Source of the DNA: a virus
DNA: 36,265 nucleotides
Virus record (IMG/VR): IMGVR_UViG_3300009503_000580
Location: 1 to 36,265 of that record
Reading direction: 5' to 3' (one strand)
Shown here: positions 4,411 through 31,795 of the stretch, one piece after another
Numbering within the stretch: the stretch's first letter is position 1
Layout of the letters: each line of letters starts with the position of its first letter
Translations under genes and position numbers: made by a program
Notes under the pieces: generated by a model
Told to the model about the DNA's origin: nothing
Database searches by the model: none
The model's input: the letters and a program-made list of their open reading frames with translations, nothing else

Positions 4411-4689
4411 ATGCGAGTATATTGGAAAGTTAAGAACGATCCACGGGTAGACAAGAATTTTTGTCCTGCCTGTGGTACGACACTTACACATAACCTAATC
4501 CCGGCCTCTAAGGAGGCTAGCTGGCGATGCCGAAATTGCGGTTGGGAGGTAATAGCTCGACATCCTTTTCCAAGAGTATCTGAGGATATTGTAAGTTGCT
4601 ATGAATATCCTTGGTTGATTAAAGACAACGGAAAGACAGGATGGATCTCTCCAGAAGTAGAAGCGGAAGAGAAAGGAGGTAAGCTGTAA
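4411..4689 (+). CDS. zinc-ribbon protein, 92 aa
   Basis: A four-cysteine zinc ribbon is clear: FCPACG near residue 17 and WRCRNCGW near residue 43, with a short beta spacer. The C-terminal half (PWLIKDNGKTGWI) is not recognised. SD GGGGGGTG precedes ATG 4411. The stop overlaps the GAT-QueC start by 1 base, so it is tightly coupled to the deazaguanine genes. Small zinc ribbons often act in nucleic-acid or protein contacts; no specific role can be assigned. Confidence 0.6.
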   Translation: MRVYWKVKNDPRVDKNFCPACGTTLTHNLIPASKEASWRCRNCGWEVIARHPFPRVSEDIVSCYEYPWLIKDNGKTGWISPEVEAEEKGGKL

Positions 4690-6202: not shown

Positions 6203-6880
6203 ATGTTAATCGGGGTCTCGGGTACGCATAGCACGGGCAAATCGTTGTTTTTGTACGAGCTACGAAAGCATCTCAAAAAACCTACAAAACTTATTACTGA
6301 GTTGTACCGAGAGATAATCGCACGGACGCCTGTCAGTAGATTTACAGACGGAGCGCTTCAAGATCTCGCGACATTCGAGATGTATGTACGCCACGAGATG
6401 ATCTTAGAAGCTCTCAAAGAAGAGAAGATTGTTTTAGTTGATCGGCATCCAGTTGACGCTCTCGTTTACGCTAAGTTCTTCGGCGCAAATGTTACAAAAG
6501 TAGAGTCTATTCTAAAAGAGCAATTGCCTTTATGGGAAGATGCTATTATTGTTGGTTTTCTTTTTGGGTTTGAGTATACTATACCTCCACGACTCCTCAA
6601 GCCTCTACGAGACGATCCCGTTCGTAGAGAGACACTAAGACTTACTAACTACTCTACGTTAGATAATGCTGTCATAGAGTTCGAGCGACTCTACTTGCAA
6701 ACCGTCCAAGAACTGCAGATCCCGATGAAGATTTTCAAGTTGTCAGATTATATAACACAACCTATAACGGAGACGTATACAGCTCGCAATACGACTGCAA
6801 TCGAGTATATTTTAGCAGAGACTGGTAGTCGGGCACAAAAAATACAGGAGGTGGAAAGTAATGTTCGTAGATCTGCATAG
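6203..6880 (+). CDS. P-loop NTPase, nucleotide/deoxynucleoside kinase-like (AAA_28/NadR-C type)
   Basis: Walker A GTHSTGKS sits near residues 7-14. A second acidic motif, VLVDRHPVDALVYAKFFG, near residues 80-97 resembles the D-R/H lid of kinases related to the NadR C-terminal domain and thymidylate kinase. Length (225 aa) fits this family. Phages often carry such proteins for nucleotide metabolism, but the substrate cannot be read from sequence. SD GGAGAG precedes ATG 6203. The 3' end overlaps the next gene by 20 bp. Confidence 0.6.
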   Translation: MLIGVSGTHSTGKSLFLYELRKHLKKPTKLITELYREIIARTPVSRFTDGALQDLATFEMYVRHEMILEALKEEKIVLVDRHPVDALVYAKFFGANVTKVESILKEQLPLWEDAIIVGFLFGFEYTIPPRLLKPLRDDPVRRETLRLTNYSTLDNAVIEFERLYLQTVQELQIPMKIFKLSDYITQPITETYTARNTTAIEYILAETGSRAQKIQEVESNVRRSA

Positions 6881-7085
6881 AGGATATGTTTGTATAGATT
6901 GTGATGCTATCTTTGATCCGTCTGATTATCGAGACGCTAGCAAAGAGATTCAATGTCCTAGATGTGCTTCTAGAGTCGCAATACCACTTACGCGGTGGCT
7001 TAGAGCATTAGGTATGACGGCACTTGAAGCTTATATTCGGGAGGAAGCATGTCGAGTGACATCAGCAGAATCTTTAGAGAACTAG
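6861..7085 (+). CDS. small zinc-ribbon protein, 74 aa
   Basis: Four cysteines in two CxxC pairs (VCIDCDAIF and IQCPRCASR) define a zinc ribbon in residues 10-40, followed by a helical tail. SD GGAGG at 6847 precedes ATG 6861. It overlaps the kinase-like gene upstream by 20 bp and the ligase downstream by 37 bp, so it is embedded in the operon. Function unknown; possibly a nucleic-acid or protein adaptor. Confidence 0.55.
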   Translation: MFVDLHRGYVCIDCDAIFDPSDYRDASKEIQCPRCASRVAIPLTRWLRALGMTALEAYIREEACRVTSAESLEN

Positions 7086-9325: not shown

Positions 9326-10139
9326 CGAAGATGAGGTTGTATCGGCTACACTATACGGCATTACTAAATACATTAAAGATTTTTTAGCTGGTAAGTTTAT
9401 GGGAGTCCATAAACCGTTGCTAGCTAAATACATACGAACCGAAATATTGAACACACGACAGTGTCTACTTACCGTAGGACGAAACTGGTTCAATACCGTC
9501 GATATGTATGGAGACAACGACATTACTCTCGTACCAGATACTCACACTACAGATCCGTATTATTGTCTGCTACGAAAAGAGGTTGCTAGAGCTGTACTAA
9601 CATCGAGCAAATTAACGCCGAAACATAAAGCTCTCTTTATTTTGCTAAACGTCGGTTGGAGTTGGAGGGATTCATGTGAGTTGTGCAAAATCTTTAAAGT
9701 GAACAGTCAAGGCTTAAGTCAGCTTTGGCGAGAACTACAAAGTTATGTCAAAGAAGATCTCCTATTGCTGAGATCAAACAGATACTACGAGAGAAGACAA
9801 CGCCGGCAGATTCTCGTACGTTCGAAGAGTAAGTTACAACAGCTACGTAAGATGCTCTTAGATACATATGAGAAACTGCAAGCTACAAACGAGAAGTCCA
9901 GACTAAGAAAGAGGTTGAAAGCTATATACCGCGAAATAGCATACGTTTTAGAGACGCTCGCCGACAAATGCGAAGAGTTCAGAGATTATCATAACGCTTT
10001 CGTTTCTATCCTATCTGGAAGTGACTATGTTCATACAAATACGCTCTTTAAGATAGACGAAGTCATTGATCTTATAGATCCGACAATTGAGGATGATTAC
10101 GTACAATCACAGCTAAGAATAGGTGTAGAATGCAAGTGA
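9264..10139 (+). CDS. putative sigma-factor-like protein
   Basis: Residues about 18-55 (DEVVSATLYGITKYIKDFLAG ... LAKYIRTEILN pattern) resemble sigma-70 region 2. Residues about 117-165 (LTPKHKALFILLNVGWSWRD, then a helix-turn-helix) resemble region 4. The C-terminal part (residues 170-240) is a long basic coiled coil with no sigma counterpart. A phage sigma factor would redirect host RNA polymerase to phage promoters. SD AAGGAGG at 9250 precedes ATG 9264; it overlaps the upstream gene by 62 bp and the polymerase by 10 bp. Alternative: an unrelated HTH DNA-binding protein. Moderate to low confidence in function. Confidence 0.4.
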   Translation: MKKLLAWAQTVARNTETFPLDEDEVVSATLYGITKYIKDFLAGKFMGVHKPLLAKYIRTEILNTRQCLLTVGRNWFNTVDMYGDNDITLVPDTHTTDPYYCLLRKEVARAVLTSSKLTPKHKALFILLNVGWSWRDSCELCKIFKVNSQGLSQLWRELQSYVKEDLLLLRSNRYYERRQRRQILVRSKSKLQQLRKMLLDTYEKLQATNEKSRLRKRLKAIYREIAYVLETLADKCEEFRDYHNAFVSILSGSDYVHTNTLFKIDEVIDLIDPTIEDDYVQSQLRIGVECK

Positions 10140-12856
10140 AAGATATCAACAGGAAGATAATTTGTGGTCTTTGGTGGGCATTACTATTTAGGACGCCAGA
10201 TCCCACAAAACAGCCGCCGCATCCTCATGCTGAAGTTGACGGTACTACTCTTGCACGATCATACTTACGAGACTTACCGCAGAGAGATATTCTGGAGTTA
10301 CATCCTCCTACGGTTGAACTCGTTGCAAGTTTAGTGGACACCTACGACAAAGAACTTTGTTATAAGTGGTATCATCTCTTTAGAGAAGAAGTATGTAAAA
10401 AGTGTCCGTATTATGAGTTAGAGGATCAATGGGTAGGTAGTAGTTATACTAACAAAGATCGTCCGAGATTGATTGTCGTAGGACAAGCTCCTGGAGCCGA
10501 CGAAGTAGATGATGGGCGTCCGTTCGTAGGTCCAGCGGGTAAGTATTTGTGGAAACGTTTAGGAGAAATAAATGTCGTTAGAAGTGACATATATGTTACG
10601 AACTCAGTCAAATGCAGACCTCCGAAGGATGCTGAACCTACTACAGAAGCGTTAACTTGTTGTACACCACTCTTGTATGAAGAACTAAAACAGTTACCCG
10701 ACTTGCTTGTAATAGCAGCAGGTAAAGTTGCTGTGAGAGCTACTACTCATCTGAAAACGTTTAGAATTGACGACTATGCTGGCGGTTGTATAGACTCGCA
10801 GATCACTCACCACAATATATTCGTATTGAAACATCCAGCATCCGTTTTACGTTCTGGATCGTTATGGATTGACAGACAGTACAGAGATCATGTTAATCAG
10901 CTTCAACGAGTGCTATCTGGAGAAGAATTCAAACACTCACTACCTTCATTCGAAGTTGTAGATAGTCTTGCAAAATTTGATGAGTTCGAGCTGAAAGTTA
11001 GACAGCAGCCTATATGTGCTATAGATATAGAAACAACGGGATTAGGTTTCGAAGACGAGATTGTGTCTGTAGCAATAAGTAATAATTTAGGTACTTGGGT
11101 GTTCCCTGTTCTTACGCATCCTTATCTAATAGACAAACTAAGACAAGTCCTACCTACACTAAAACTAATCGCACACAACGCTATATTCGATATCTGCATG
11201 ATAAACTATAGGTGGGATCTAGAATGTGACGTATATTGGGATACAATGCAATTTCAACACTTACTTGACGAAGAAGGAGAGCTAGGGCTGAATATACTCG
11301 CTGTTCGTATGGTAGGTGCTCCTCCAGGTTTCAAAGAGAAAGGAGATAAGTTTTGGCGAATCAAAGATCTCGCTGCACATCTCAAAGAACACAAAGAAGA
11401 TTTAAGCACATTCTTGGAGTACAATGCTACTGACGCATACTATACTTATAAAGTTTATCTCGCGCAACAGAAACACCCAGAGTACGCCCACGTAATCAAT
11501 TTCCATAACATATTCACACTTCCTGTACTTAACATGTTCATCGATATCAATAAGTTTGGCGCTCCTATTGACGTATACCAGATGATAGAACTCAACAAAC
11601 ATTTCTCTACAGAGATCTCAAATCTCGAACAAGAATTATTTGCTATAGTAGGATCATCATTCAGGCATAGGAGTACTCAAGAACTAGCAAACGTATTGAG
11701 ATTATTAGGAGTTACAGAAGAGCAGACAGGTAAAACAGATACGGGTAGAATGAAGTTGACGCAGGACGTAATCGAGAAATTATCAGAAGCTGAAAACGAG
11801 AAAGTGGCACTCTTAGCTCAGAAAATACTTGAGATACGAAAGCTCGAAAAACTAAGAGATACATACATACGCCAATTGAGCAATTATATTTACACGAATG
11901 CATATACGAAAGTTCCTAGTGTCTCGCCTGTGTTTAAGCTACATGCATCTAAGACATATCGTATCAATACAGAGAATCCGAACATCCACAATATACCAAG
12001 AGGTTCTCAACTAAAGAAATTATTTGCTGCTCCTGAAGGATATGTCATTCTAGGATCAGACTACGAAAGTGCGGAAGCGTTTCACGCTGCAAGTATTAGT
12101 GGAGAATCGAAAGTAATTGAGTTTGTTCTAGATCCCACAAAAGATCAGCATAGATATACAGCTGCTCGCGTTTTTGGTATATCTGAAGATCAGGTAACAA
12201 AAGATCAGCGGACGACAGCAAAGCTTGTATGGTTTTGTTTACAATATGGTGGTACGGAACACGCCGTTGCTCGAGACTTGAACATCTCATATGAAGAGGC
12301 TATGAAAATTGTTAACGGGATCAGAAAGACGTATCCTAGACTTTTTCATACTCTCGATAGTTTTATTGCAGTAGCTAAAACAAATAAAAGATTAGTGAAT
12401 AGATTTGGAGCTGTTAGGAGATTCAAAATTTGGGAAGGACAATTTGCATCTTCGAATGCTAGACAAGCACTTAACTTTCCAATTCAAAGTGAAGTGTCTA
12501 TCTATTGTCATTTAGCAGCTTATGATCTACATCTTATTATGAAAGAAGTTGGCTTGGAGAATTGGAGAATCTTATTCACTATCCACGACGCTATTTACAC
12601 TCTCGTGAAAAAAGAGTTGGCAAGTCTGGCTGCTGCAATTATGAAGAAAGTGATGGAGCTACCTCGATATGGTATGTACCTACTAACAAGCCCTGAAGTT
12701 GGGCCTACTTGGTACGATTTACATCCTCTCGAAGGTACTGAGAAAGAGTTATACGATAGTTTCTTAGTCCAACCATTAGATGAATTAATTAGGAGGATAA
12801 TATTAGATGTCGAACGTGATACGAGTAACGAACTTAGAGTTTCTTACTACGTGTGA
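10130..12856 (+). CDS. DNA polymerase A with N-terminal uracil-DNA glycosylase domain and 3'-5' exonuclease
   Basis: Three domains are visible. Residues about 85-265: iron-sulfur-type uracil-DNA glycosylase, with the CKKCPYY pair, GQAPGADEVDDGRPFVGPAG, KCRPP, a later Cys of TCCTP and KHPASVLRSG. Residues about 295-460: DEDDy exonuclease, IDIETTGL (near 302), HNAIFD and YNATDAYYTY. Residues about 500-908: family A polymerase, motif A GSDYESAE (Asp near 643), motif B RTTAKLVWFCLQYGG and motif C TIHDAIYT (D820). The usual Glu after the catalytic Asp in motif C is Ala. A UDG-like N-terminus on a phage PolA is known, as I recall, from SPO1-type phages. ATG 10130 lies inside the end of the sigma-like gene. 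The dUTPase at 13526 fits a shared uracil-exclusion role. Confidence 0.88.
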   Translation: MQVKDINRKIICGLWWALLFRTPDPTKQPPHPHAEVDGTTLARSYLRDLPQRDILELHPPTVELVASLVDTYDKELCYKWYHLFREEVCKKCPYYELEDQWVGSSYTNKDRPRLIVVGQAPGADEVDDGRPFVGPAGKYLWKRLGEINVVRSDIYVTNSVKCRPPKDAEPTTEALTCCTPLLYEELKQLPDLLVIAAGKVAVRATTHLKTFRIDDYAGGCIDSQITHHNIFVLKHPASVLRSGSLWIDRQYRDHVNQLQRVLSGEEFKHSLPSFEVVDSLAKFDEFELKVRQQPICAIDIETTGLGFEDEIVSVAISNNLGTWVFPVLTHPYLIDKLRQVLPTLKLIAHNAIFDICMINYRWDLECDVYWDTMQFQHLLDEEGELGLNILAVRMVGAPPGFKEKGDKFWRIKDLAAHLKEHKEDLSTFLEYNATDAYYTYKVYLAQQKHPEYAHVINFHNIFTLPVLNMFIDINKFGAPIDVYQMIELNKHFSTEISNLEQELFAIVGSSFRHRSTQELANVLRLLGVTEEQTGKTDTGRMKLTQDVIEKLSEAENEKVALLAQKILEIRKLEKLRDTYIRQLSNYIYTNAYTKVPSVSPVFKLHASKTYRINTENPNIHNIPRGSQLKKLFAAPEGYVILGSDYESAEAFHAASISGESKVIEFVLDPTKDQHRYTAARVFGISEDQVTKDQRTTAKLVWFCLQYGGTEHAVARDLNISYEEAMKIVNGIRKTYPRLFHTLDSFIAVAKTNKRLVNRFGAVRRFKIWEGQFASSNARQALNFPIQSEVSIYCHLAAYDLHLIMKEVGLENWRILFTIHDAIYTLVKKELASLAAAIMKKVMELPRYGMYLLTSPEVGPTWYDLHPLEGTEKELYDSFLVQPLDELIRRIILDVERDTSNELRVSYYV

Positions 12857-16733: not shown

Positions 16734-17017
16734 TACAAATACTCGAGCCGCTACTTGACACTCTCGAACGAAAACATATCGAATACGGAGACACATATAC
16801 GGTTACGACAGAAGTACTATGTGTTCTCTTTCGACACAAAATCGAAAACGGAAAGTTCGTTTTCTCACGCGAAGATCTTCAGCATATGCTCGCGATTACA
16901 CGAACAATCGACAAACTCTGTAGAGTTACTCACGGCAATAAAGGAGAAGAAAACGCGTGGCTAGACATAGCCGGCTATGCGCTACTAGAGCTGCAACGAG
17001 CTCTAGACGAAGAATGA
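16688..17017 (+). CDS. phage protein resembling DUF6378 / nucleotide-modification-associated domain
   Basis: The pattern KHIEYGD near residue 30, an R-x-x-DKLCR segment and the conserved WLDIAGYALL near residue 90 match small phage proteins of the DUF6378 and DUF1599 (nucleotide modification associated domain 1) type as I recall them. All-helical, MazG-like length of 109 aa. Biochemistry is not established. SD AAGGAGG at 16675 lies inside the primase gene, giving a 46-bp overlap. The association with a 7-deazaguanine pathway in this phage is suggestive only. Confidence 0.5.
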   Translation: MGQQRSKLLPIRERLIQILEPLLDTLERKHIEYGDTYTVTTEVLCVLFRHKIENGKFVFSREDLQHMLAITRTIDKLCRVTHGNKGEENAWLDIAGYALLELQRALDEE

Positions 17018-17036
17018 AACAAAAATGGAGGAAGTA

Positions 17037-17822
17037 ATGTCACAGCAAAAACAAACAGCACCATCATCAAACTACTTAAAGGAGTTTTTAGATGGTACAA
17101 CTGTCTCACAGAGCGCTAGTTATTTTGTACCACAAATGGGACAAAACTTAATCAGAATCGTTGTGAAAGGCACACCAATTACGCAGATGAGAGAGCACTT
17201 CATTAAATGGAGTGCAGCTTGCTTCGGACAGAGATGTCCTATCTGCTATATCGCGTCAAAGTACAATCTCCAAGATTGGGCTGCAAGAGAAATGAGAATG
17301 GTATACGTTGCCGACCTTACGAATCCACAACCACTTATCAAGCTCTTCTCATTTGGGCCGATGATAGCAAGTAAACTTAATTTACTTGCGAGAAACTACG
17401 ACATACTCGATCCAAAGCACGGAATTGTGCTACTGCTCCAAAGGACAGGACAAGGAAGAAATACAAAATACGAAATACTTCCGAAAGAGCCTTTAGACTT
17501 AACATCACTCCCGGATTACAACATAGAATATGAATCCTTAATACCACTTGAAGAAATACCACAGAAAAGAATAGAAGAAACAAAGTCTTCACTTATCAGG
17601 AATTTCGAAGCTTACCTACCGCCAGATATATTCAACGCAGTTGTCACAGACCTAAAGGAGCGTGGGTATCTCCAAATGCTTGACATCGATGAATCACTCG
17701 TTGGTCTCGATTCAACACCGCAAACTCTACAGACAACCGAGCCGCCACTCATAGGGTCTCAACCTACGATCGAAGACATTCAGAGCGTACAAGACATTCT
17801 CAAGAAACTTAAGAAACAATAA
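17037..17822 (+). CDS. gp32-like single-stranded DNA-binding protein
   Basis: The central region resembles phage ssDNA-binding proteins of the T4 gp32 type: REHFIKW with a His, then RCPICYIA with two Cys (possible zinc ligands), aromatic-rich strands (MRMVYVADL, IKLFSFG), and an acidic, proline/threonine-rich C-terminal tail ending in a helical segment (DIQSVQDILKKL). It would coat single strands and organise replication and recombination. ATG 17037 is chosen because GGAGG lies 5-10 bases upstream; the earlier ATG 17025 is part of that SD. Next to primase and recA-like genes, as expected. Confidence 0.65.
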   Translation: MSQQKQTAPSSNYLKEFLDGTTVSQSASYFVPQMGQNLIRIVVKGTPITQMREHFIKWSAACFGQRCPICYIASKYNLQDWAAREMRMVYVADLTNPQPLIKLFSFGPMIASKLNLLARNYDILDPKHGIVLLLQRTGQGRNTKYEILPKEPLDLTSLPDYNIEYESLIPLEEIPQKRIEETKSSLIRNFEAYLPPDIFNAVVTDLKERGYLQMLDIDESLVGLDSTPQTLQTTEPPLIGSQPTIEDIQSVQDILKKLKKQ

Positions 17823-17887: not shown

Positions 17888-19159
17888 ATGACATCCCTAT
17901 TCGAAAAACTACAGATTCCTACAGTAGAAGAAACAGATGTCTCTGAAGTAACAGAAGTTATACCAACAAATATAATTCCGTTAGACATCGCATTAGGTAT
18001 AGGCGGATTTCCCAGAGGTAGATTATCTGCTATTGTTGGAACTTATAGCACAGGCAAAAGTTCGATAGGCGTAATCTTAGCAAGAAACAATCTACGATTA
18101 GGCGGAAAGACGTTGATAATCGATACCGAGTTCACATATGAAAAGTTCAGACTAACTCAATTCAACGTTCCTATCAAGTCGAAAGATATTGCTGTATTAC
18201 AGAATTGGAGGGGAGACGTACTGACCGCAGAGAAGACTGAGTCAATCTTAATCACAACGTTGAAAGTTGCTAAACCTGAGGATAAACTGTTAATCGTTTG
18301 GGACACCATAAGTAGTACGCCTCTAGAAGCTGAACTTACAGAACGTGAAGATAAAGACAAACTAATGGGAAGACATTCGCGTATTCTCTCTCGTCTTCTT
18401 CGTACGATACCAAAAGATATAGCAGAAAAGAATGTCACAATTGTGATGATCGTGCAGCCAAAGATCGATCCTATGACGGGCACAACAACCTACTTAGGCG
18501 AGAAACCTATTAAGTTCCACTCTTCGATATTAGTGAACTTAAGTCGATACTCAAAAGATGAATCAAAGATGGTAGTAGGATTCGACGTACAGAAAAACAA
18601 GTGTGCTCCACCATTCACAAAAGGTAAATTTACACTCTATCTTCATTCTGGTATTGACTATATATCTGGTTGGGATGCAGCTGTAGGTAAAGCTACAGCA
18701 TTTTATCAATTAGGGGACGTTAGTGTAAAACGTACTGAGAGCGGACTTCTTTTGCTCAAGAAGAAAACTTTAATTGAGACGATGATCACAGAGAAACTTT
18801 TCAGAAGAATTCCATATCGAATACTCTTAGAAGAAAATGATGTGTACGCCTACCGACCAACGACTAATGATACAAATAAGATCAAAGAAAATGATGTGCA
18901 CGTCTATCAATTAGCGACTAATGATATAAATGGGATCAAAGAAAATGATGTGTACGCCCACCAACTAGCAGTTAATAATATAAATAAGATCGAAGATGCT
19001 ATGTACAACGATGATGCACACGCCTGTCAATCAACGACTAATGATACAAATGATACACACAACGATAATACACACAACTCTAGTGCGTTCGACTATGATA
19101 CGTACGACTATGATACGTACGACTATGACGCGGGCGACTTTGATGCGTTCGACGACTAA
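17888..19159 (+). CDS. RecA/UvsX-like recombinase with expanded repetitive acidic tail
   Basis: Residues about 25-290 form a RecA-type core: Walker A GTYSTGKSS (51-59), LIIDTEFTYE, Walker B-like LLIVWDTISS, IVMIVQPK near the L2 region and KFTLYLHSG. It should pair homologous DNA with the UvsY-like, Rad50/Mre11 and gp32-like partners here. After about residue 315 the sequence is low-complexity: three 18-residue units of the ENDVYAY ... TNDINKIK type, then Asn/Asp/His-rich stretches and DYDTY repeats, ending FDAFDD. The tail is far longer than usual. Just after the stop, another frame encodes TTNDINEIEEDVENVVEE to 19220, which looks like the original acidic C-terminus. So the repeat tract seems to have expanded out of frame. 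ATG 17888 follows AAGGAGG. Confidence 0.8.
   Translation: MTSLFEKLQIPTVEETDVSEVTEVIPTNIIPLDIALGIGGFPRGRLSAIVGTYSTGKSSIGVILARNNLRLGGKTLIIDTEFTYEKFRLTQFNVPIKSKDIAVLQNWRGDVLTAEKTESILITTLKVAKPEDKLLIVWDTISSTPLEAELTEREDKDKLMGRHSRILSRLLRTIPKDIAEKNVTIVMIVQPKIDPMTGTTTYLGEKPIKFHSSILVNLSRYSKDESKMVVGFDVQKNKCAPPFTKGKFTLYLHSGIDYISGWDAAVGKATAFYQLGDVSVKRTESGLLLLKKKTLIETMITEKLFRRIPYRILLEENDVYAYRPTTNDTNKIKENDVHVYQLATNDINGIKENDVYAHQLAVNNINKIEDAMYNDDAHACQSTTNDTNDTHNDNTHNSSAFDYDTYDYDTYDYDAGDFDAFDD
18833..18994 (+). repeat. three tandem 54-bp repeats inside the recA-like gene
   Basis: Units start at 18833, 18887 and 18941, each beginning GAAAATGATG and containing AATGATA(C/T)AAAT. A fourth, diverged unit with extra bases runs from about 18992 to 19058, and a partial unit follows at about 19152-19184 in another reading frame. 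Unit lengths of 54 bp keep the frame in the first three; the later part does not. Confidence 0.85.
19091..19150 (+). repeat. four tandem 15-bp repeats in the recA-like tail
   Basis: GACTATGATACGTAC occurs twice exactly (19091, 19106), then as two diverged copies (19121, 19136), coding DYDTY-like pentapeptides. Each unit is a multiple of three, so copy number can vary without shifting frame. The tract lies 3 bases before the current stop region. Confidence 0.9.
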
Positions 19160-22325: not shown

Positions 22326-22550
22326 ATGTATACAGAATCAACAACAATATTACAATACGGACCCGGATCTAATTACGGTTATGTATGTGGTGGATATACG
22401 CACGGTAATACTAACGACAGTATCTCCACTATAGACCGCTTTCAGTTTCCATTCGATAGTGGTACCGCAAATTATGTAGGTAATTCGAGTGGAAGTAGAG
22501 ATGCATTAAGCGCTACCGATGGAGTAGACTTTACGACAATGTTTGTATGA
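22326..22550 (+). CDS. one-unit member of the VCGG/IDRFQFPFD repeat-protein family (orphan cassette)
   Basis: The 74 residues contain the family N-cap (QYGPGSNYGYVCGG), one variable loop, one framework unit (STIDRFQFPFDSGT ... GSRDALSA) and the C-cap (TDGVDFTTMFV). It is exactly what remains if all internal units are deleted between repeats. It lies 4.2 kb before the main array, separated by helicase genes. It has a weak SD (GGAGAACGTAT). Its last framework stretch GSRDALSA is shared with the C-terminus of the gene at 28178, hinting at recombination. It may be a relic or a donor cassette. Confidence 0.7.
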   Translation: MYTESTTILQYGPGSNYGYVCGGYTHGNTNDSISTIDRFQFPFDSGTANYVGNSSGSRDALSATDGVDFTTMFV

Positions 22551-22755: not shown

Positions 22756-24028
22756 GAACTTTGCAGTACTAAAAGAGCATACTAAAGAGGAATGGACACA
22801 GATTAGGTCTCTTCTCTCTTATAAAACTCAAACGTTTATAAGAGGAAGATGGACTGCTATTCCTCACTACTTGATTCACGGTAAGACGAAAGTCTTTCCT
22901 ACAGGCCTACTGCACATCATAACAAGTAAGTTCAAAGTAGAGATAGCCGATCTTCGTCCTAAACGCATACCAATTACTCTACCCGAAAATATTCCTCTCG
23001 ATACATACCAGAAACAGATAATGCGTGATGCCTTACGCTATCAACGTGCTATCGTTAATGTACCTACAGGTGCTGGTAAGACGTATACATTCTCAACGTT
23101 TGCGGCATATATTGATAGACCAACTATCATAATCACTCCTACTCAAGAGATACTTAGTCAAGTTGTTGAGCATATTACAAAATACACAACAGACATACGA
23201 GTTATGTGGAACACATCTCACACTACTTTTGATAAACGTATAATAGTAACAACAAGTGGCACACTGAACTCTCGATTCGACTTCCTCAAAGAAGAAGGCA
23301 AAAAGATAGAAGTAATGATTAGTGATGAAGCTCATTTCTACGGAGCCGATTCGTTCTTCAGAATAAGCCATCTGTTTCCGAATGCCTGGATTCGTTTAGG
23401 CTTCAGCGGTACACCAATAGGTCGTTCTGATAATGCAGACTTAAGAACACTAAGTGTGTTCTCTCCCCATATCGTAACCTATCAAGGAGAAATAGAAAGA
23501 ATAGTACCCGTAAAAGTTTTTCTAGTAGATTACTGTAGCAACGCAAGATGGAGTGATCCCGAAGATTACGAACAACTACTGGAAGACGTAGAGCGTCAAG
23601 AAGCGATTGTGGAGCTAATAAATATCCTCAGGAAAGAAAAGTTGACACCTTATCTCGTATTTGTTGATAGAATCAAATACGGAGAAACACTTTCAGAAAA
23701 GCTTTCGATTCCGCTCATTACATCTACCTCACTCGAGCGAGACACAATCTTCGACGATCTCAGAAACGAAAAGTTAGAAGGTATCGTAACTACAATTGGA
23801 TGGATAGGTTTAGACATACCTAATCTGAAAGCAGTAGTGAATACTTCACGAGAGACTACGTCTATTAGTCTAGGACAAAAAGCTGGCCGTGTCAGACGTA
23901 AAATGGGAAAGGATGTAGGCATCGTATTCGACTTTCTAGATCGTGGAAGACTACCAAGTAGATGGGCCCGTAAGAGGCGAAAGACATACGAAAGCTTAGG
24001 ATTCGAAGTAATACAAACAAAACTTTAA
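22733..24028 (+). CDS. SF2 DNA helicase, UvsW-like
   Basis: Superfamily 2 motifs in order: Q-motif-like LDTYQKQIM, motif I VPTGAGKT (near residues 109-116), TIIITPT, motif II ISDEAH (near 197), FSGTPIG (motif III), VFVDRIKYGE (IV region), and VRRKMGKD with QKAGRVR (VI). The N-terminal 80 residues carry a small extra domain. UvsW-type helicases resolve branched recombination intermediates and R-loops and switch T4 from origin-driven to recombination-driven replication. This fits the RecA, UvsY-like and Rad50/Mre11 set here. The start overlaps the clamp-motif gene. Confidence 0.8.
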   Translation: MKIEVRDENFAVLKEHTKEEWTQIRSLLSYKTQTFIRGRWTAIPHYLIHGKTKVFPTGLLHIITSKFKVEIADLRPKRIPITLPENIPLDTYQKQIMRDALRYQRAIVNVPTGAGKTYTFSTFAAYIDRPTIIITPTQEILSQVVEHITKYTTDIRVMWNTSHTTFDKRIIVTTSGTLNSRFDFLKEEGKKIEVMISDEAHFYGADSFFRISHLFPNAWIRLGFSGTPIGRSDNADLRTLSVFSPHIVTYQGEIERIVPVKVFLVDYCSNARWSDPEDYEQLLEDVERQEAIVELINILRKEKLTPYLVFVDRIKYGETLSEKLSIPLITSTSLERDTIFDDLRNEKLEGIVTTIGWIGLDIPNLKAVVNTSRETTSISLGQKAGRVRRKMGKDVGIVFDFLDRGRLPSRWARKRRKTYESLGFEVIQTKL

Positions 24029-24047
24029 AGTAAAAAGGAGGGATTTG

Positions 24048-24971
24048 ATGGAAGAGCAAAAACAGACCACAGAGCTCACAGAGCTAACAAACATTACTAA
24101 AAATATTTTCAATGCACTCGCTAAAGACGAGCAACTTGTATCATCTCTGCCCGTTGAACTTAATCAGAAACTGGTGGAGGTCACAGATATAATTTCTCAG
24201 AATAAAACACTGCCACAACTATACGGAGACATACTTACAGAAATTCCAGTATCTCAATCATTGTTTCAAGATGTATGCGTACAATACGAAATCCACTTCA
24301 CACCACACCGCAAACTGAGACAGGCTATGTTAGAACTAGACGGTAGACTGAGAGCACTCTATGCCGCAAAAGATGGACACGCAGAAGCATATTATAAAGT
24401 AGAGCAGACGAAATTGAGACTCGAAGAGCTCGAGAACGAGCTCGCATCCGTAACAGATGACTTTGAGAGACGGAGACTAGAACTTCGAATAGGTAAGTTA
24501 AGATACGAACTCGAAAAGAAGCAAAGAGACCTTGAGAACGCAATTCACTTAGTAAAAGATGCAATGTTGAAAGTAGCGATGCATCAAACACTAATAGACC
24601 GTCTTAAGAAAGAAGTAGAAGAAAGCGGTCTGAGCTTTGAAGAAGCTGAAATGGTATACTTTGTAATGTATTTCACAAAGGATGCAGAAGTACAGCTCCG
24701 TACGATGGGTAGAGTAGATACAGGAACGTTTGGTGCTATAGCACAATTACCCGAGGGCATACGAAAGAAGGTATTATGGAACATCGAATTCATAAGAAAG
24801 AAGCTCCAAGAAGAAAACTACAACGGAGATTATCTACATATCGTCTACAGAGACATCTTATTACCAAAGAAGACTGGAGAGAACGAGATAGAAGGATGCA
24901 ACGTCAAAGAGTTCACCGGTCTAGAGCCCATTAAAGTACTAGCTAAAAGCGACGGACAGACACCAGAATAG
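24048..24971 (+). CDS. coiled-coil hypothetical protein, 307 aa
   Basis: No family recognised. Residues about 85-205 form a long coiled coil (KLRLEELENELASV, LRIGKLRYELEKK). The C-terminal third (MVYFVMYFTKDAEVQL to GNEIEG region) is globular. ATG 24048 is chosen over an upstream in-frame TTG, with AAGGAGGG at ideal spacing. It is the last gene before a strong hairpin at 25003. Function unknown. Confidence 0.55.
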   Translation: MEEQKQTTELTELTNITKNIFNALAKDEQLVSSLPVELNQKLVEVTDIISQNKTLPQLYGDILTEIPVSQSLFQDVCVQYEIHFTPHRKLRQAMLELDGRLRALYAAKDGHAEAYYKVEQTKLRLEELENELASVTDDFERRRLELRIGKLRYELEKKQRDLENAIHLVKDAMLKVAMHQTLIDRLKKEVEESGLSFEEAEMVYFVMYFTKDAEVQLRTMGRVDTGTFGAIAQLPEGIRKKVLWNIEFIRKKLQEENYNGDYLHIVYRDILLPKKTGENEIEGCNVKEFTGLEPIKVLAKSDGQTPE

Positions 24972-25002
24972 TAGAAGAGTACGAAATGTTTTAGTTATAA
25001 GA

Positions 25003-25039
25003 GTGCCGAATGTTTAGCTATCAACTAAGCATTCGGCAC
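25003..25039 (+). terminator. 15-bp hairpin, probable terminator or 5' structure
   Basis: GTGCCGAATGTTTAG and CTAAGCATTCGGCAC pair over 15 bp with one G-U, around a 7-nt loop. It lies between two genes, 31 bp after one and 12 nt before the next SD. A clear U-tract is lacking (AAATCTTTG follows). Confidence 0.6.
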
Positions 25040-25067
25040 AAATCTTTGAAAAAGGAGGATCCTATCA

Positions 25068-25400
25068 ATGACTTCAAATGACAAACAGCCACAAGAAAAA
25101 TCCTTAAGAGATAATATATACGTAATCTTATATGATATCGTTGACGATGAAGTGACACTAAGAATCGTTCGTATGAAGGATGATGTTAATCCTAACACTT
25201 ACATACTAGAACCAAATATTGGCAGTACAGACTTGAAATACTACGATCCTGTAGCTATTGAGTCAGCGATCGAAGAAGAAGTTGCACTTATTAGTTTAGG
25301 TCCAAACAAAAAGGATATTAGTGTTAGAGTATACTCCGACTACAATCTTCTTCTTAAGAAGGAACTAACTGTCACATGGGAAGAAAAAGACGTCAACTAA
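25068..25400 (+). CDS. hypothetical protein, 110 aa
   Basis: No family recognised. Strand-rich in the first half (YVILYDIVDD, VTLRIVRM) and acidic overall. Strong SD (AAAGGAGGA). It overlaps the next gene by 25 bp. Confidence 0.55.
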   Translation: MTSNDKQPQEKSLRDNIYVILYDIVDDEVTLRIVRMKDDVNPNTYILEPNIGSTDLKYYDPVAIESAIEEEVALISLGPNKKDISVRVYSDYNLLLKKELTVTWEEKDVN

Positions 25401-25774
25401 CTCTATCGGATATAATTATAATACTTCTTTGTATAACCGCCACTCTTACTATCGTCTCGTATGCTACGACTCCGGCTATCTCATTCTTCTCACAATTACA
25501 TACAATCGAAACACGCTATGTCAAAGTTACGATACAAGACTCAGGATATCATCTTCTTACAGAGCAACCAATATTCGATATGCCTGTTCGTATAGAAACT
25601 AGAGACGGAATGACATATCCCGGAATAATAACTATCAATTGTAGTAAGCGAACATACACTATACATTCTTACTATATCAATACGACTACAAAATTACCTC
25701 GGGGAAGATTACAAGACTTCCTCGAGGACTATTGTATACGATTTCCGTCTTCGTATAGACATGTTATAAGATAA
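25376..25774 (+). CDS. membrane-anchored protein with the IDC/INC two-cysteine plan, 132 aa
   Basis: Residues 11-35 are a hydrophobic anchor (DIIIILLCITATLTIVSYA) after a basic N-terminus (GRKRR), so the rest is probably outside the cytoplasm. ITINCSKRTYTIHS and a later Cys in EDYCIRF match in position the pairs in the two lipoproteins at 21508 and 21903. No family recognised. The SD is weak or absent and the gene overlaps the previous one by 25 bp, suggesting coupling. Confidence 0.5.
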   Translation: MGRKRRQLTLSDIIIILLCITATLTIVSYATTPAISFFSQLHTIETRYVKVTIQDSGYHLLTEQPIFDMPVRIETRDGMTYPGIITINCSKRTYTIHSYYINTTTKLPRGRLQDFLEDYCIRFPSSYRHVIR

Positions 25775-25788
25775 ATGGAGGTATATTA

Positions 25789-26721
25789 ATGCGAATGTCC
25801 GATGAAGAATTCGTACATAGATATCATAAAGCTTTGGAATTACACCTACGGGGTTATACATTAGCGGGTGCTATACGGAGATTCGAACTACCTACAAATT
25901 GGAGGACACGAGCTAAGAAACTAGGCCTTCCGGGCAAGTTACTTGAACTCGCATTGGGATTCGAATACCCCGACTTCGAAACGAAGTGGCAGAATCTCAT
26001 AGACGAGTTCTTAAGCTACGAAACATGTTATTCGCGGCCTAGCGTACATGCTCTCTTTGTAAAACATTTCCCTGACTATCCGTTTTCATTCGAAGTCGCA
26101 AGTCAGTATGCAAAGTACTTAAATCTTCCAATGCCGTCTCAATTAATCAAACAACGAAAGGAGAGTAAGAAGATGATACCTCTTAAAGAACTATACGAAC
26201 GAAAACCGGAAGTTCGAGCAATCGCGGAAAGCGTAATTGAAAATAGATTAGAGAAGTACATACTCCGCTATCTCTTTACGAGAGAACCAAAAACATTAGA
26301 AAGATATTTTCCATCCGGGTGGACTTATATTTCGAAAGAAGGTAAGCCGTACATAAGACTTACGATCTGTCAGAATACGCAACCAGTGACTGAGTTAGTT
26401 AAAAGCAACATAGAGCAGCTATTCGCAAAATCGAAGGTAAGCGTTCCTAACATCGATGTACTATGGAAGTCACCTAATCTCTACGTAGACATTGAACTTC
26501 AGTCAACAATGTTCATTCTTTTAGCAACAAGTGATATTCTTGATACATACGAATTAGATCCTACGATAGCTTCACAGATTCTCAATACCGACGACGAGAA
26601 CGATCTTGCTGATCTACTATACGACGAAATCGATGATGATACGCTCATAGAACACCTTCGACTAAGAAAAGTATACCAACAAATATTCTCAGATCTTGCA
26701 ACATCACTAACTACAAGTTGA
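25789..26721 (+). CDS. hypothetical protein with HTH-like N-terminus, 310 aa
   Basis: No family recognised. Residues about 5-50 (ALELHLRGYTLAGAIRRFELP ... RAKKLG pattern) resemble a helix-turn-helix. The rest is mixed alpha/beta and acidic near the end (DDENDLADLLYDEIDDD). ATG 25789 follows ATGGAGG. It sits directly before the repeat-protein array; a regulatory role for the array is possible but unsupported. Confidence 0.5.
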   Translation: MRMSDEEFVHRYHKALELHLRGYTLAGAIRRFELPTNWRTRAKKLGLPGKLLELALGFEYPDFETKWQNLIDEFLSYETCYSRPSVHALFVKHFPDYPFSFEVASQYAKYLNLPMPSQLIKQRKESKKMIPLKELYERKPEVRAIAESVIENRLEKYILRYLFTREPKTLERYFPSGWTYISKEGKPYIRLTICQNTQPVTELVKSNIEQLFAKSKVSVPNIDVLWKSPNLYVDIELQSTMFILLATSDILDTYELDPTIASQILNTDDENDLADLLYDEIDDDTLIEHLRLRKVYQQIFSDLATSLTTS

Positions 26722-26767
26722 CGAAAAAGAGCATACAAAAATCCCTAAAAAAAATGGAGGGCGTATA

Positions 26768-27136
26768 ATGTATACAGACTCAAATTCAACAACACAACGA
26801 TATGGGTCTGGATCTAACTATGGTTGAGGTTGGAATGGCGGTTATAGAGGCTTTTACAGTATCTCTACTATAGACCGTTTTCAATTTCCATTCGATAGTG
26901 GAACTGCAAATAAAGTTGGTAATTTAAGTGGAAATAGACGTTTCTCAAGTGCTAACAATAGCAGTACATACGGTTATGTATGCGGAGGTGAAGATTCCAA
27001 CTACTATCTCTCTACCATAGACCACGTCCAATTTCCATTTGATAATGGTACAACAAATCTGGTAGGCAACTTAAGCGAAGATAGAGCGTTATTAGGTGCT
27101 ACAGATGGCGTAGACTTCGTAACAATGTTTGTGTAA
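26768..27136 (+). pseudogene. repeat-family member disrupted by an in-frame TGA (two units)
   Basis: The frame begins with the family N-cap (MYTDSNSTTQRYGSGSNYG), and an intact SD precedes it, but codon 20 is TGA (26825-26827). Compared with siblings, 9 bases of the TATGTATGTGGAGG segment are missing, which creates the stop without changing the frame. After it, two full units and the C-cap (VDFVTMFV) continue. TGA is a normal stop in many genes here, so recoding is unlikely. It is either a pseudogene or a silent cassette that can be restored by recombination. Confidence 0.75.
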
Positions 27137-27203
27137 TTGTAACTAATAAGATAATAAACAAAACACAAAAACGTACAAAAAATCTCCAAAATGAGGAGTG
27201 TAT

Positions 27204-28133
27204 ATGTGTACAAACTCAAATCTAACGACACAGCGATATGGACCTGGATCAAATTATGGTTATGTATGTGGAGGATCACGTAGTAGTAACTATTTCTCTA
27301 CCATAGATCGCTTCCAGTTTCCATTTGATAGTGGTACAACAAATCAGGTGGGCAATCTGAGTGGAAGTAGAAAAGAGTCAAGTGCTAATAATAGTAGTAC
27401 ATACGGTTATGTATGCGGAGGATATAGTAGTCAAATCCTCTCAGTCATAAACCGCTTTCAGTTTCCATTTGATAGCGGTACTGCAAACCACGTAGGTAAT
27501 TTGTGTAGGAACAGAAAACAACTATGCGCCAATAATAGCAGTACACATGGTTATGTATGTGGTGGAACAGAAATCTTCTGGATTTCTACTATAGATCGCT
27601 TTCAATTTCCGTTTGATGAAGGTACAGCAAATCTGATAGGCAATTTGAGTAGACGTAGAAGTTGGTCGAGTGCTAACAATAGTAGTACATACGGTTATGT
27701 ATGTGGTAGTTGGTATAGCATCTTAGACCGTTTCCAATTTCCATTCGATAATGGCTCAGTAAGTCAGGTAGGCAATTTAAGTGAGGATAGAACAGGCTTA
27801 AGTACTAACAATAGTAGTACGTACGGATATGTATGTGGTGGGCATAGTAGTAATGGCATTCTTTCTGCCATAGATCGCTTTCAGTTTCCATTTGATAGTG
27901 GTACAGCAAATCAAGTGGGTAATTTGAGTGGAAGTAGAACGTTATTAAGTGCTAATAATAGTAGCACACACGGTTACGTATGTGGTGGATGGATTGGTGA
28001 TCCTCTCTCCATTATAGACTGCTTTCAATTTCCATTCGATAGTGGTACAGCAAGTCAGATAGGCAATTTGAGTGGAAGTAGAAACGACTTGAGTGCTATA
28101 GATGGTGTAGACTTCGTGACAATGTTTGTATGA
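27204..28133 (+). CDS. repeat-family protein, six units, intact
   Basis: N-cap, six framework units and C-cap form one continuous frame of 309 codons. The six loops differ in sequence and length. Unit 4 has one of the shortest spacers in the array (GYVCGS then WYSILDR). ATG 27204 follows AGGAG at 5-nt spacing; the GTG at 27198 is part of the SD. Six units could close a small propeller or form a fibre segment. It is likely an exported virion or adhesion protein, but no signal peptide is seen. Function is inference from family resemblance. Confidence 0.75.
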   Translation: MCTNSNLTTQRYGPGSNYGYVCGGSRSSNYFSTIDRFQFPFDSGTTNQVGNLSGSRKESSANNSSTYGYVCGGYSSQILSVINRFQFPFDSGTANHVGNLCRNRKQLCANNSSTHGYVCGGTEIFWISTIDRFQFPFDEGTANLIGNLSRRRSWSSANNSSTYGYVCGSWYSILDRFQFPFDNGSVSQVGNLSEDRTGLSTNNSSTYGYVCGGHSSNGILSAIDRFQFPFDSGTANQVGNLSGSRTLLSANNSSTHGYVCGGWIGDPLSIIDCFQFPFDSGTASQIGNLSGSRNDLSAIDGVDFVTMFV

Positions 28134-28177
28134 ATAAGAGACAACAAATTAAGTCTCTAAAAATAGAGAGGTGTATA

Positions 28178-29170
28178 ATGTATATAGCAGATGCAAATTC
28201 AACAACACAACAATATGGACCAGGATCAAATTATGGTTATGTATGCGGAGGATATAGTGGAGACGGAAATAAAGCATCTTGGTACTCTATTATAGACCGT
28301 TTCCAATTTCCGTTTGATAGTGGTACTGCAAATAAAGTTGGTAACTTAAGTAGACGCAGACGTGGCTCAAGCGCTAATAATAGTAGTACGTACGGGTATG
28401 TATATGGTGGAGACAGTGGATATAATGATACTACGGTTTCTACTATAGACCGCTTTCAGTTTCCATTTGATAGCGGTACTGCAAATAAAGTTGGTAATTT
28501 AAGCAAACGTAGGAGTGCATCAGCCGCCAATAATAGTAGCACGTACGGTTACGTATGTGGCGGTGATTACGGATACTACAATAACTATCTCTTTATCATA
28601 GACCGCTTCCAATTTTCATTCGATAGTGGAACTACAAATCAAGTAGGCAACCTAAGTGGAAGTAGAAGTGACTTGAGTGCTAACAATAGTAGCACATACG
28701 GTTATGTATGCGGAGGATTTAGGGGTGGATACCAAATCGTAGACGTGTACTCCACTATAGACCGCTTCCAATTTCCATTCGATAGTGGTACTGCAAATCA
28801 AGTAGGTAATTTGAGCGTAAGTAGAGAATGGTTAAGTGCTAACAACAGTAGCACACACAGCTATGTATGTGGTGGGTATAATCATTATAATGGCACTCTC
28901 TCTACTATAGATCGCTTTCAGTTTCCTTTTGATAGTGGCACTGCAAATCATGTAGGTAATTTGAGTAGGAATAACAGTTGCTCAAGTGCTAACAATAGTA
29001 GCGTATATGGTTATGTATGTGGTGGTGGAAGTGATGATTTCAGTTCTACTATAGACCGCTTCCAGTTTCCGTTTGATAGTAGCATTACAAGTTATGTAGG
29101 TAATTTAAGTGGAAGTAGGGATGCATTAAGCGCTGTAGATGGTGTAGACTTTGTAACGATGTTTGTATGA
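28178..29170 (+). CDS. repeat-family protein, six units, intact
   Basis: Start ATG 28178 follows AGAGGTG. Six framework units with six different loops (YSGDGNKASWY, DSGYNDTTV, DYGYYNNYL, FRGGYQIVDVY, YNHYNGTL, GSDDFS), then the C-cap. Loop residues are rich in Gly, Tyr, Asn, Asp and Ser, as in binding loops. The spacer after it matches the spacer before it in part, showing whole-gene duplication. The last unit shares GSRDALSA with the orphan at 22326. Confidence 0.75.
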   Translation: MYIADANSTTQQYGPGSNYGYVCGGYSGDGNKASWYSIIDRFQFPFDSGTANKVGNLSRRRRGSSANNSSTYGYVYGGDSGYNDTTVSTIDRFQFPFDSGTANKVGNLSKRRSASAANNSSTYGYVCGGDYGYYNNYLFIIDRFQFSFDSGTTNQVGNLSGSRSDLSANNSSTYGYVCGGFRGGYQIVDVYSTIDRFQFPFDSGTANQVGNLSVSREWLSANNSSTHSYVCGGYNHYNGTLSTIDRFQFPFDSGTANHVGNLSRNNSCSSANNSSVYGYVCGGGSDDFSSTIDRFQFPFDSSITSYVGNLSGSRDALSAVDGVDFVTMFV

Positions 29171-29212
29171 ATAATAAGAGACAATATTTACTAAGTATCT
29201 AAAAAAATGTAT

Positions 29213-29719
29213 ATGTATACAGAATCGACAGCACAACGATACGGTCCGGGGTCTAACTATGGTTACGTATATGGCGGATGGGATAGCTCTCACATTTTCT
29301 CTACCATAGACCGCTTCCAATTCCCATTTGATAGTGGTACGGCAAGTCATGTAGGTAATTTGAGTGGAAGCAGAGAATGGCTAAGTGCTAACAATAGTAG
29401 CACATACGGTTATGTATGTGGAGGAACTTCAGTCTTCTCATGGATCTCTACCATAGACCGCTTCCAATTTCCATTTGATGATGGTACTACAAATCGGGTA
29501 GGCAATTTGAGTGAAAGTAGAAGCGATTTGAGTGCTAATAATAGTAGCACATACGGTTATGTATGCGGAGGATGGAATAAGAGTGACAATTTCTCTATTA
29601 TAGATCGCGTTCAATTTCCATTCGATGGTGGTACTACAAACTACGTAGGTGATTTGAGTGGAAGAAGAAGTGCGCTGAGTGCTACAGATGGCGTAGACTT
29701 CGTAACAATGTTTGTGTAA
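29213..29719 (+). CDS. repeat-family protein, three units, no ribosome-binding site
   Basis: The frame is intact (N-cap, three units, C-cap), but the SD found before every main-array sibling is missing. The bases before the start read CTAAAAAAATGTAT where relatives have a GAGG block, so about 10 bases seem to be deleted. ATG 29207 is an alternative start two codons earlier. Translation would be poor unless coupled to the upstream gene 37 bp away. Its third loop, WNKSDN, recurs in unit 6 of the gene at 30844. Confidence 0.65.
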   Translation: MYTESTAQRYGPGSNYGYVYGGWDSSHIFSTIDRFQFPFDSGTASHVGNLSGSREWLSANNSSTYGYVCGGTSVFSWISTIDRFQFPFDDGTTNRVGNLSESRSDLSANNSSTYGYVCGGWNKSDNFSIIDRVQFPFDGGTTNYVGDLSGRRSALSATDGVDFVTMFV

Positions 29720-29782
29720 TTGTAAGCTAACAAAACAACAAACAAAAAACGTACAAAAAATCTCCAAAATGGAGGGCGTAAT

Positions 29783-30781
29783 ATGCAAAATCCAACAACA
29801 CAACAATATGGACCAGGATCTAATTATGGTTATGTATGTGGCGGATCACGCGGATATAGTTCTTACTCTACTATAGACCGCTTCCAATTTTCATTCGATA
29901 GTGGTACTGCGAATAAAGTTGGCAACTTAAGTAGACGTAGATATGACTCAAGTGCTAACAATAGTAGTACGTACGGATATGTATGCGGAGGAATTGCAGT
30001 CACACGAACTTTCGTCTTATGGACCTCAGCCTCATGGACCTCTATCATAGACCGCTTTCAGTTTCCATTTGATGAGGGTACAACAAATTATGTAGGCAAT
30101 TTGTGTAGACTTAGATGCTGGTCGGGAGCTAATAATAGTAGCACACACGGATATGTAAGCGGAGGATATAATAGTAACTACTATCTCGCTACTATAGACC
30201 GCTTCCAGTTTTCGTTTGATAGTGGTACTGCAAATCAAATAGGTAATTTAAGTGGAAGTAGAGAACGGGTTAGTGCCAACAATAGTAGTACACATGGTTA
30301 TGTATGCGGAGGATATAGTCGTAACAATCTCTCTACTATAGACAGATTCCAGTTTCCATTCGATAGTGGTACTGCAGATTTTGTGTGTAAGTTAAGTAGA
30401 AGTAGAGAGAGCTTAAGTGCTAACAATAGTAGTACGTACGGTTATGTATACGGCGGATGGAGTGTAAGCTGTGGTCACGTCCCTATCATAGACCGCTTCC
30501 AATTTCTATTCGATGATGGTGTTGCAAGTCAGGTAGGTGATTTGAGTGGGAGTAGAAGCTGGTCGGGCGCTAATAATAGTAGCACACACGGATATGTATG
30601 CGGAGGATATTATAGTTTCCAGATGCATCAGGGTAGTCTCGACTGCTACCACTACTCTACTATAGATCGCGTCCAATTCCCATTCGATGGTGGTACTGCA
30701 AATTATGTAGGCAATTTGAGTGGAAAAAGAAGTGCGCTGAGTGCTACAGATGGCGTAGACTTCGTAACAATGTTTGTGTAA
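29783..30781 (+). CDS. repeat-family protein, six units, intact
   Basis: ATG 29783 follows ATGGAGGG. Six units, including two of the longest loops in the array (IAVTRTFVLWTSASWTS in unit 2 and YYSFQMHQGSLDCYHY in unit 6). The N-cap is shortened at its start (MQNPTTQQ). The C-terminal unit carries the variant IDRVQFPFDGGT shared with the gene at 29213, pointing to gene conversion between neighbours. Otherwise the framework is constant. Confidence 0.75.
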   Translation: MQNPTTQQYGPGSNYGYVCGGSRGYSSYSTIDRFQFSFDSGTANKVGNLSRRRYDSSANNSSTYGYVCGGIAVTRTFVLWTSASWTSIIDRFQFPFDEGTTNYVGNLCRLRCWSGANNSSTHGYVSGGYNSNYYLATIDRFQFSFDSGTANQIGNLSGSRERVSANNSSTHGYVCGGYSRNNLSTIDRFQFPFDSGTADFVCKLSRSRESLSANNSSTYGYVYGGWSVSCGHVPIIDRFQFLFDDGVASQVGDLSGSRSWSGANNSSTHGYVCGGYYSFQMHQGSLDCYHYSTIDRVQFPFDGGTANYVGNLSGKRSALSATDGVDFVTMFV

Positions 30782-30843
30782 TTGTAAAGCTAATAAAACA
30801 ATAAACAAAACGTATAAGAATCTCTAAAATGGAGAGCGTAATA

Positions 30844-31795
30844 ATGTATACAGACTCAAATTCAACAGCACAACGATATGGACCAGGATCTAACTATGGT
30901 TACGCATGTGGAGGTTGGGATAGCTATAACCGTCTCTCTACTATAGACCGCTTTCAGTTTCCATTCGATAACGGTACCACAAATCAAGTAGGTAATTTGA
31001 GGGAGAGTAGATTTGCTTCAAGTGCTAACAATAGTAGTACATACGGATATATATATATGTGGTGGTAGTCGTATCTCTACTATAGATCGCTTCCAGTTTC
31101 CGTTCGATAGTGGTACCACAAATCAGGTAGGCAATCTGAGCGAAGATAGAAACAGACTATGTGCCAACAATAGTAGCACACGCGGATATGTATACGGAGG
31201 ATGGAATAGCGGTTATAGCAGTCATAACGATCTCTCTATCATAGACCGCTTTCTGTTTCCATTCGATAGTGGTACTGCAAAACATATAGGCAATCTGAGC
31301 GAAAACAAAAGCAGACTATGTGCTAACAACAGTAGCACACACGGATATGTATGTGGCAGTGGTAGTTGCAACTCTACCATAGACCGCTTCCAGTTTCCAT
31401 TTGATGATGGTACAGCAAATTATGTAGGTAACTTGAGTGGAAGCAGAGGTTGGCTAAGTGCTAACAACAGTAGTACATATGGTTACGTATGTGGTGGAAT
31501 TGATAGTAGTTATTACCCCTCCTCTACTATAGACCGCTTTCAGTTTCCATTTGATAGTGGTACAGCAAATCAAGTAGGTAATTTGAGTGGACGTAGAGCG
31601 TTCCTGAGTGCCAATAATAGTAGCATACACGGATATGTATGCAGCGGATGGAATAAGAGTGATAATCTCTCTACTATAGACCGCTTTCAGTTTCCATTCG
31701 ATAGTGGAACTACAAATCAAGTGGGCAACTTAAGTGGAAGTAGAAGCGACTTGAGTGCTATAGATGGTGTAGACTTTGCGACAATGTTTGTGTAA
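30844..31795 (+). pseudogene. repeat-family gene split by an (AT)6 frameshift; six units if repaired
   Basis: Reading from ATG 30844, the first unit and N-cap are normal. At 31047-31058 the sequence has (AT)6 where siblings have TATGTATGT, adding 4 bases and shifting the frame so that translation ends at TAG 31066-31068. In the shifted frame five more units and the C-cap follow to 31795. Losing two AT repeats, or gaining one, would restore the frame. The location at the start of a loop is suggestive of a slippage switch. It could also be ordinary decay or a read error. Confidence 0.75.
31047..31058 (+). repeat. (AT)6 dinucleotide tract inside coding frame
   Basis: Twelve bases of AT alternation replace the TAT-GTA-TGT codons of the unit consensus. 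The tract makes the gene out of frame by +1. Four or seven AT units would put it back in frame. This is the classic form of a phase-variable dinucleotide repeat, though short. Confidence 0.85.

Follow-up and report, generated by a model that had tools for sequence, protein, structure and literature searches.

The 36,265-base viral record IMGVR_UViG_3300009503_000580 (hereafter the window, i.e., the whole stretch of DNA analyzed) carries at 26768-31795 a tandem array of six repeat-protein genes. Structure prediction indicates that these almost certainly encode kelch propellers with their variable sites on one face. The array probably constitutes a binding repertoire of some kind and, on balance, we favor a set of virion-borne adhesins whose diversity stems from mutation and recombination. 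It appears to belong, as a divergent example, to a class of kelch arrays that is widespread in aquatic phages and apparently undescribed; literature searches limited to open-access papers yielded kelch proteins of phages and no account of hypervariable kelch arrays.

A second assembly of the same phage, IMGVR_UViG_3300005573_000071 (99,356 bases), was recovered from another sample and contained the window at 62110-98376 with 99.97% identity and 10 differences. Searches with portal, polymerase, and RNA polymerase sequences gave no close relative other than records of this same phage. Two scans of genome contigs gave no array kin and hence no link to a host or prophage.

Architecture of the array

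A framework scan of 26768-31795 counted exactly 29 units of approximately 48 residues in six + strand genes, in agreement with the six genes and roughly 29 units of an earlier note made from the window sequence. Each unit was composed of YGYVCGG, a loop, S(T/I)IDRFQFPFDSGTANxVGNLSxxR, two variable residues, and (L/S)SANNSST, with 2, 6, 6, 3, 6, and 1+5 units in the successive genes. Gene 2 (27204-28133), gene 3 (28178-29170), and gene 5 (29783-30781, including two loops of 16 residues) were intact with six units each; the open reading frame (ORF) of gene 3 opens at 28130 and the conserved array N-terminus begins at 28178. Gene 4 (29207-29719) had only three units. The two-unit gene 1 (26768-27136) contained an in-frame TGA at 26825-26827 that apparently arose via a short in-frame deletion in YGYVCGG, and the reading frame of gene 6 (30844-31795) was broken within a TA run at GGATATATATATATG near 31050. 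Both lesions were identical in the two assemblies covering the array, such that the broken members described earlier were confirmed. Readthrough of the gene 1 TGA was rejected because this phage uses TGA as a regular stop codon, with 10 of 25 genes ending in it. Outside of the array, a solo + strand cassette (22326-22550) encoded one unit together with the leader, N-tail, and C-tail found in the array genes. Another six-unit gene, located at 16874-17771 of IMGVR_UViG_3300005573_000071, was frameshifted in three assemblies. The tails were near-invariant among the cassettes: the N-tail is YGPGSN, with TTQ or TAQ in front of it in most copies, and the C-tail is GVDFVTMFV.

A leader stem-loop preceded six of the seven cassettes (22326, 26768, 27204, 28178, 29783, and 30844), with gene 4 the one lacking it. 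In the gene 2 example (27177-27203, + strand), the Shine-Dalgarno GGAG pairs with an upstream CUCC, and the leader stems exhibited matching changes (CUCC/GGAG, CUCU/AGAG, and CCCU/AGGG), although the stems are weak, with energies of -3 to -5.6 kcal/mol.

Predicted fold and position of the variable loops

The AlphaFold2 model of gene 2, built with 68 sequences including kin from other phages, had a predicted local distance difference test (pLDDT) score of 91.5, a predicted template modeling (TM) score of 0.88, and 24 strands arranged as six four-stranded blades. The model depends on the relatives in the alignment, as a run with three paralogs alone gave a pLDDT of 35. The propeller scaffold proposed in the earlier note was thereby supported for 27204-28133. 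Foldseek against the PDB identified the designed six-fold kelch protein SAKe6 as the top match (expectation value, E, of 8.6e-21; TM 0.82/0.90), followed by KLHL12, Keap1, and KLHL3, and a sequence-profile match to KLHL12 was also obtained (E 2e-8). The Kelch_1 profile scored 22.4 bits on gene 2 (cut-off 20.1) and was weaker on the other array genes.

In blade I of the model, strands B and C span residues 18-22 and 33-38, placing the variable loop (25-31) between them as the BC loop. Residues 57-58, which form a second variable site, fall between strand D (47-51) and the following blade's strand A (60-63) and hence lie in the DA loop. The antiparallel-meander topology of the model strongly predicts that the BC and DA loops share one face, in line with the single loop face implied earlier, and by the same topology the N- and C-tails would exit from the opposite face. 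Blade I is predicted to be closed by a C-terminal strand, as in KLHL20, where the C-terminal strand A closes blade I and the substrate face owes its shape to the BC and DA loops (PMC6720452).

The array propellers therefore resemble the six-bladed kelch domains of Keap1, KLHL12, and KLHL20 (Pfam Kelch_1) in their fold, in the GG motif ending strand B, and, according to the prediction, in the C-terminal closure of blade I and the variable BC loops on the ligand face. They differ in being free-standing (no BTB or other domain), multi-gene, and built of far more uniform blades. The best PDB match SAKe has a comparable near six-fold symmetric scaffold but is designed, while the array scaffold is natural with loops that change from blade to blade. 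A likeness to variable leucine-rich-repeat receptors had also been drawn; it holds for the common idea of a constant scaffold bearing variable residues and fails for the fold, which is kelch and not leucine-rich repeat.

Framework constraint and loop composition

The framework had a mean amino acid identity of approximately 75% between units compared to 19% for the seven-residue loops. Synonymous and nonsynonymous differences over 28 framework codons (pS 0.53, pN 0.18) gave a dN/dS of 0.22, indicating a framework under selection as had been suggested. The loop following VCGG (e.g., SRSSNYF at 27276-27296, + strand, directly after YGYVCGG in unit 1 of gene 2) ranged from 2 to 16 residues by the boundaries used here rather than the 3-20 given previously. 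All 30 loops (29 from the array plus the solo gene) were distinct strings, although WNKSDNF and WNKSDNL were nearly alike. The earlier description of variability in this loop was correct but overlooked the second variable site, the two residues following VGNLSGSR (27372-27377, + strand, in unit 1 of gene 2), where pN reached 0.64 and 0.68 and 23 of 30 dipeptides were different.

Compared to the other proteins of the phage, loop residues were enriched in W (4.7-fold), Y (3.3-fold), S (3.2-fold), and N (2.5-fold) with K and E below 0.2-fold. The bias was retained against random DNA of equal base content for W (4.5-fold, p 9e-6), Y (3.2-fold, p 4e-9), K (0.19-fold, p 2e-4), and E (0.21-fold). A make-up rich in W, Y, S, and N resembles that of antibody binding loops. 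To call the loops free, as had been done, was thus too strong: they vary nearly everywhere, but their composition is far from that of random DNA. These data bear on the explanation that duplication expanded the array and its loops drift without function, which we consider very improbable. Persistence of broken members and the low loop identity between units would fit such drift, but the framework dN/dS, the bias to W, Y, S, N, and D against random DNA, and the depletion of K and E do not. Further evidence against it comes from other phages, in that exactly six units were maintained in 95% of the complete ORFs of one related group and the two variable loop sites were the same across three separate groups.

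Related arrays in other phages

A tblastn search of isolated phages at 1e-5 gave no match; after the limit was loosened, the Synechococcus phage S-SKS1 emerged. Its units follow the same plan (YGYFGGG, loop, TIDRIDFSNETTSAPGNNLPQAR, xx, LAAVSSSS), and several such genes are clustered, some of them split. These repeat genes (SWZG_00287, SWZG_00289, SWZG_00291, and others) have a corresponding framework, YGYFGGG-loop-TIDRIDFSNET-R-xx, and differ from the window array in that intact relatives carry 12 units per gene, the loops are Pro-rich, and the annotation is hypothetical only. The Kelch_KLHDC2 profile matched the S-SKS1 repeat protein. An S-SKS1-based search retrieved 52 IMG/VR loci in which intact genes mostly had 12 units, i.e., two propellers. 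Adjoining pieces of 9+3 and 3+9 units in S-SKS1 (L043 1657-3505 and 4343-6192) had the appearance of frameshifted 12-unit genes.

The phrog_19111 profile matched five array genes of the window with E from 1e-17 to 5e-33, spanning several repeats. It corresponds to a third group of arrays, from uncultured phages (GYTSGG, loop, NVIDKFPF; L047 and L104-L172), for which 185 IMG/VR stretches were matched. Similar to the window array, these have six units per gene (exactly six in 213 of 223 complete ORFs from 69 loci, in keeping with one propeller per gene), tandem genes, and the same two variable sites, with up to eight array genes per locus and more in one 155-kb contig. They differ by an N-terminal region of approximately 50 residues, Pro/Ser/Thr-rich loops, and, in L047, a position beside neck and terminase genes. 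The view that a multi-gene array with broken members was without precedent was consequently not upheld, as S-SKS1, which also has split members, and many IMG/VR contigs contain arrays.

Sulfotransferase and 2OG-Fe(II) oxygenase genes were observed beside kelch arrays at L106:1005-3623, L043:3512-4342 and 6609-6887, L094:4028-4858, and L101:5635-8311, and oxygenase genes adjoin adhesin genes in S-ShM2. The aquatic kin with these adjoining genes have Pro/Ser/Thr-rich loops and it is conceivable that the encoded enzymes modify them. No member of either family was detected in the window phage's 99-kb contig.

Loop turnover and the source of diversity

Close relatives in the other groups were compared with array genes matched by position beside a shared flank, so that paralog exchange and in-place loop change both count as turnover. 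For L055 and L051, identity was 97.4% over 2,440 downstream bases and dropped at the array edge to approximately 75% in the array gene, where amino acid identity was 0.77 for the framework, 0.27 for BC loops, and 0.31 for DA sites. The L140 and L160 flanks were 100% identical over 3,672 bases, with DNA identities of 0.90 (framework), 0.78 (BC), and 0.71 (DA), and L106/L152 and L120/L171 had a similar pattern. L106/L108 displayed the opposite, with identical arrays and flanks at 98.6%. It is therefore clear that loops often, although not always, turn over much faster than flanks and framework between close relatives of these groups, and the expectation that loops would differ between related phages was supported in these relatives, with L106/L108 as the exception. 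Of all the results, we find the hypervariable loops of the relatives the most interesting. Within the S-SKS1 group, 374 of 424 loops were distinct. In loops of relatives, pN/pS exceeded 1; as loop sites are near saturation, this ratio carries no weight as proof of positive selection.

Of 67 S-SKS1-group units that had a counterpart in another contig at >95%, 30 paired with it at a different unit number, suggesting shuffling; no transfer event was observed directly. For the window, units at the same index in different genes were no more alike than units at other indices (0.742 vs 0.738, permutation p 0.26), such that positional kinship was rejected, and units with 89% identical framework bore unrelated loops. 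These same observations would suit silent-donor variation, in which expression is confined to one or two genes while short, split, and solo copies serve as a gene conversion reservoir comparable to Neisseria pilS or Borrelia vls, and three of the eight genes are broken and two are short. We nevertheless regard this explanation as improbable: the framework difference of approximately 26% between copies slows conversion, no amino acid change separates the two samples, the genes of relatives are mostly intact, and five of the six array genes possess their own leader and ribosome site.

The earlier note had also judged that the array was not built by a reverse transcriptase, and no match to PF00078 was found in the 99-kb contig, which may be incomplete. 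TGG was among the commonest loop codons (13 occurrences) with CAA and GAA also present. As these codons would not result from adenine mutagenesis of AAY and PF00078 gave no match in that contig, the array was rejected as a diversity-generating retroelement target. A tentative generalization, which we hold to be plausible but less than even in likelihood, is that recombination without a retroelement renews the kelch-binder repertoires of many phages. Arrays of as many as a dozen genes, each encoding a six-fold scaffold whose BC and DA loops diversify independently, would then present many specificities at once per virion or population. Most of the hypervariable phage binding proteins known so far belong to diversity-generating retroelements, and a kelch-binder repertoire, if true, would represent a second general route to them.

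Proposed role in host recognition

We infer the virion location, ligand, donor role, and recombination in the window phage. According to the favored adhesin reading, each intact gene would yield one six-bladed kelch propeller of approximately 310-330 residues closed by its C-terminal strand. As the BC loop and the two-residue DA site change in almost every blade, each protein is proposed to have its own binding face of six loop pairs. Docking to the virion is probably the task of the N-tail and C-tail, perhaps via a coiled-coil protein encoded at 24045-24971, and several adhesins with different specificities would act side by side in recognizing the host surface. Their diversity would derive from point mutations, short in-frame insertions or deletions, and exchange by recombination between repeats and between genes without a retroelement, leaving the broken and short copies as by-products of, or donors for, recombination. 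Such adhesins would be a common means by which aquatic phages have several host specificities at their disposal, and they would form a natural library of kelch binders with grafted loops, similar to those that protein engineers are starting to build (SAKe).

Indirect support for a virion link comes by analogy from L047, in which the array lies directly upstream of head-tail adaptor, head-closure (neck), tail-sheath-stabilizer, and terminase genes, a position that we take to correspond to that of gp12 and the whisker gene wac in T4. Foldseek matches in PhiPA3 and Noxifer were to proteins named virion structural. Phage vB_PcaM_CBB likewise has a cluster of kelch-propeller genes (CBB_550, CBB_552, and CBB_554), of which the CBB_552 protein was identified in the virion by mass spectrometry (PMC5259590), though loop variation is undescribed in these proteins and their Foldseek match was weaker.

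The putative docking protein (24045-24971, + strand, 1.8 kb upstream of the array) matched phrog_1409 with an E of 3.7e-18. The same family was matched by a gene between the arrays of S-SKS1-type phages (about 5e-5 to 1e-7) and by a gene upstream of the L106 array (5e-4), and in the cyanomyovirus S-ShM2 the phrog_1409 member SShM2_038 is situated beside fiber-like adhesin genes. A profile built from third-group array-adjacent genes found solely the 24045-24971 gene in the 99-kb contig (E 3.6e-5).

Several observations weigh against virion-borne adhesins. The window array sits among replication genes and not beside the portal, and the S-SKS1 array is near metabolic genes and away from tail genes. 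The array regions of the two assemblies differed by two synonymous changes and one upstream indel, with zero amino acid changes and identical loops, and so gave no sign of active diversification in this phage. The 24045-24971 product is a lead as propeller partner, given weak to moderate profile scores and the ease with which coiled coils cross-match. In addition, poxviruses and BTB-kelch proteins have kelch domains that function as adaptors inside the cell (PMC3185573; PMC6720452). Along with the replication-region location and propellers devoid of an obvious fiber or baseplate domain, this precedent would favor intracellular binders, i.e., adaptors or decoys for host proteins in host takeover or counter-defense with loops that diversify in an arms race. 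We consider that role rather unlikely, since the L047 array directly precedes neck, tail, and terminase genes, the CBB, PhiPA3, and Noxifer kelch proteins are, or are named, virion proteins, and the PADLOC anti-phage defense profiles gave no match at E 0.01.

Other genes of the phage

Two sets of multi-subunit RNA polymerase beta and beta-prime genes were identified at 23504-30303 and 36106-41971 of IMGVR_UViG_3300005573_000071, with the beta-prime gene at 36106 at best 27-31% identical to those of other phages. A single ORF at 10130-12856 combines an N-terminal uracil-DNA-glycosylase domain with a 3'-5' exonuclease and a family A DNA polymerase. Another at 4689-6173 encodes glutamine amidotransferase and QueC domains, which suggests 7-deazaguanine DNA modification. 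Finally, a 54-base direct repeat of 3.1 copies was present at 18831-18996 within a RecA-like gene (17888-19159).

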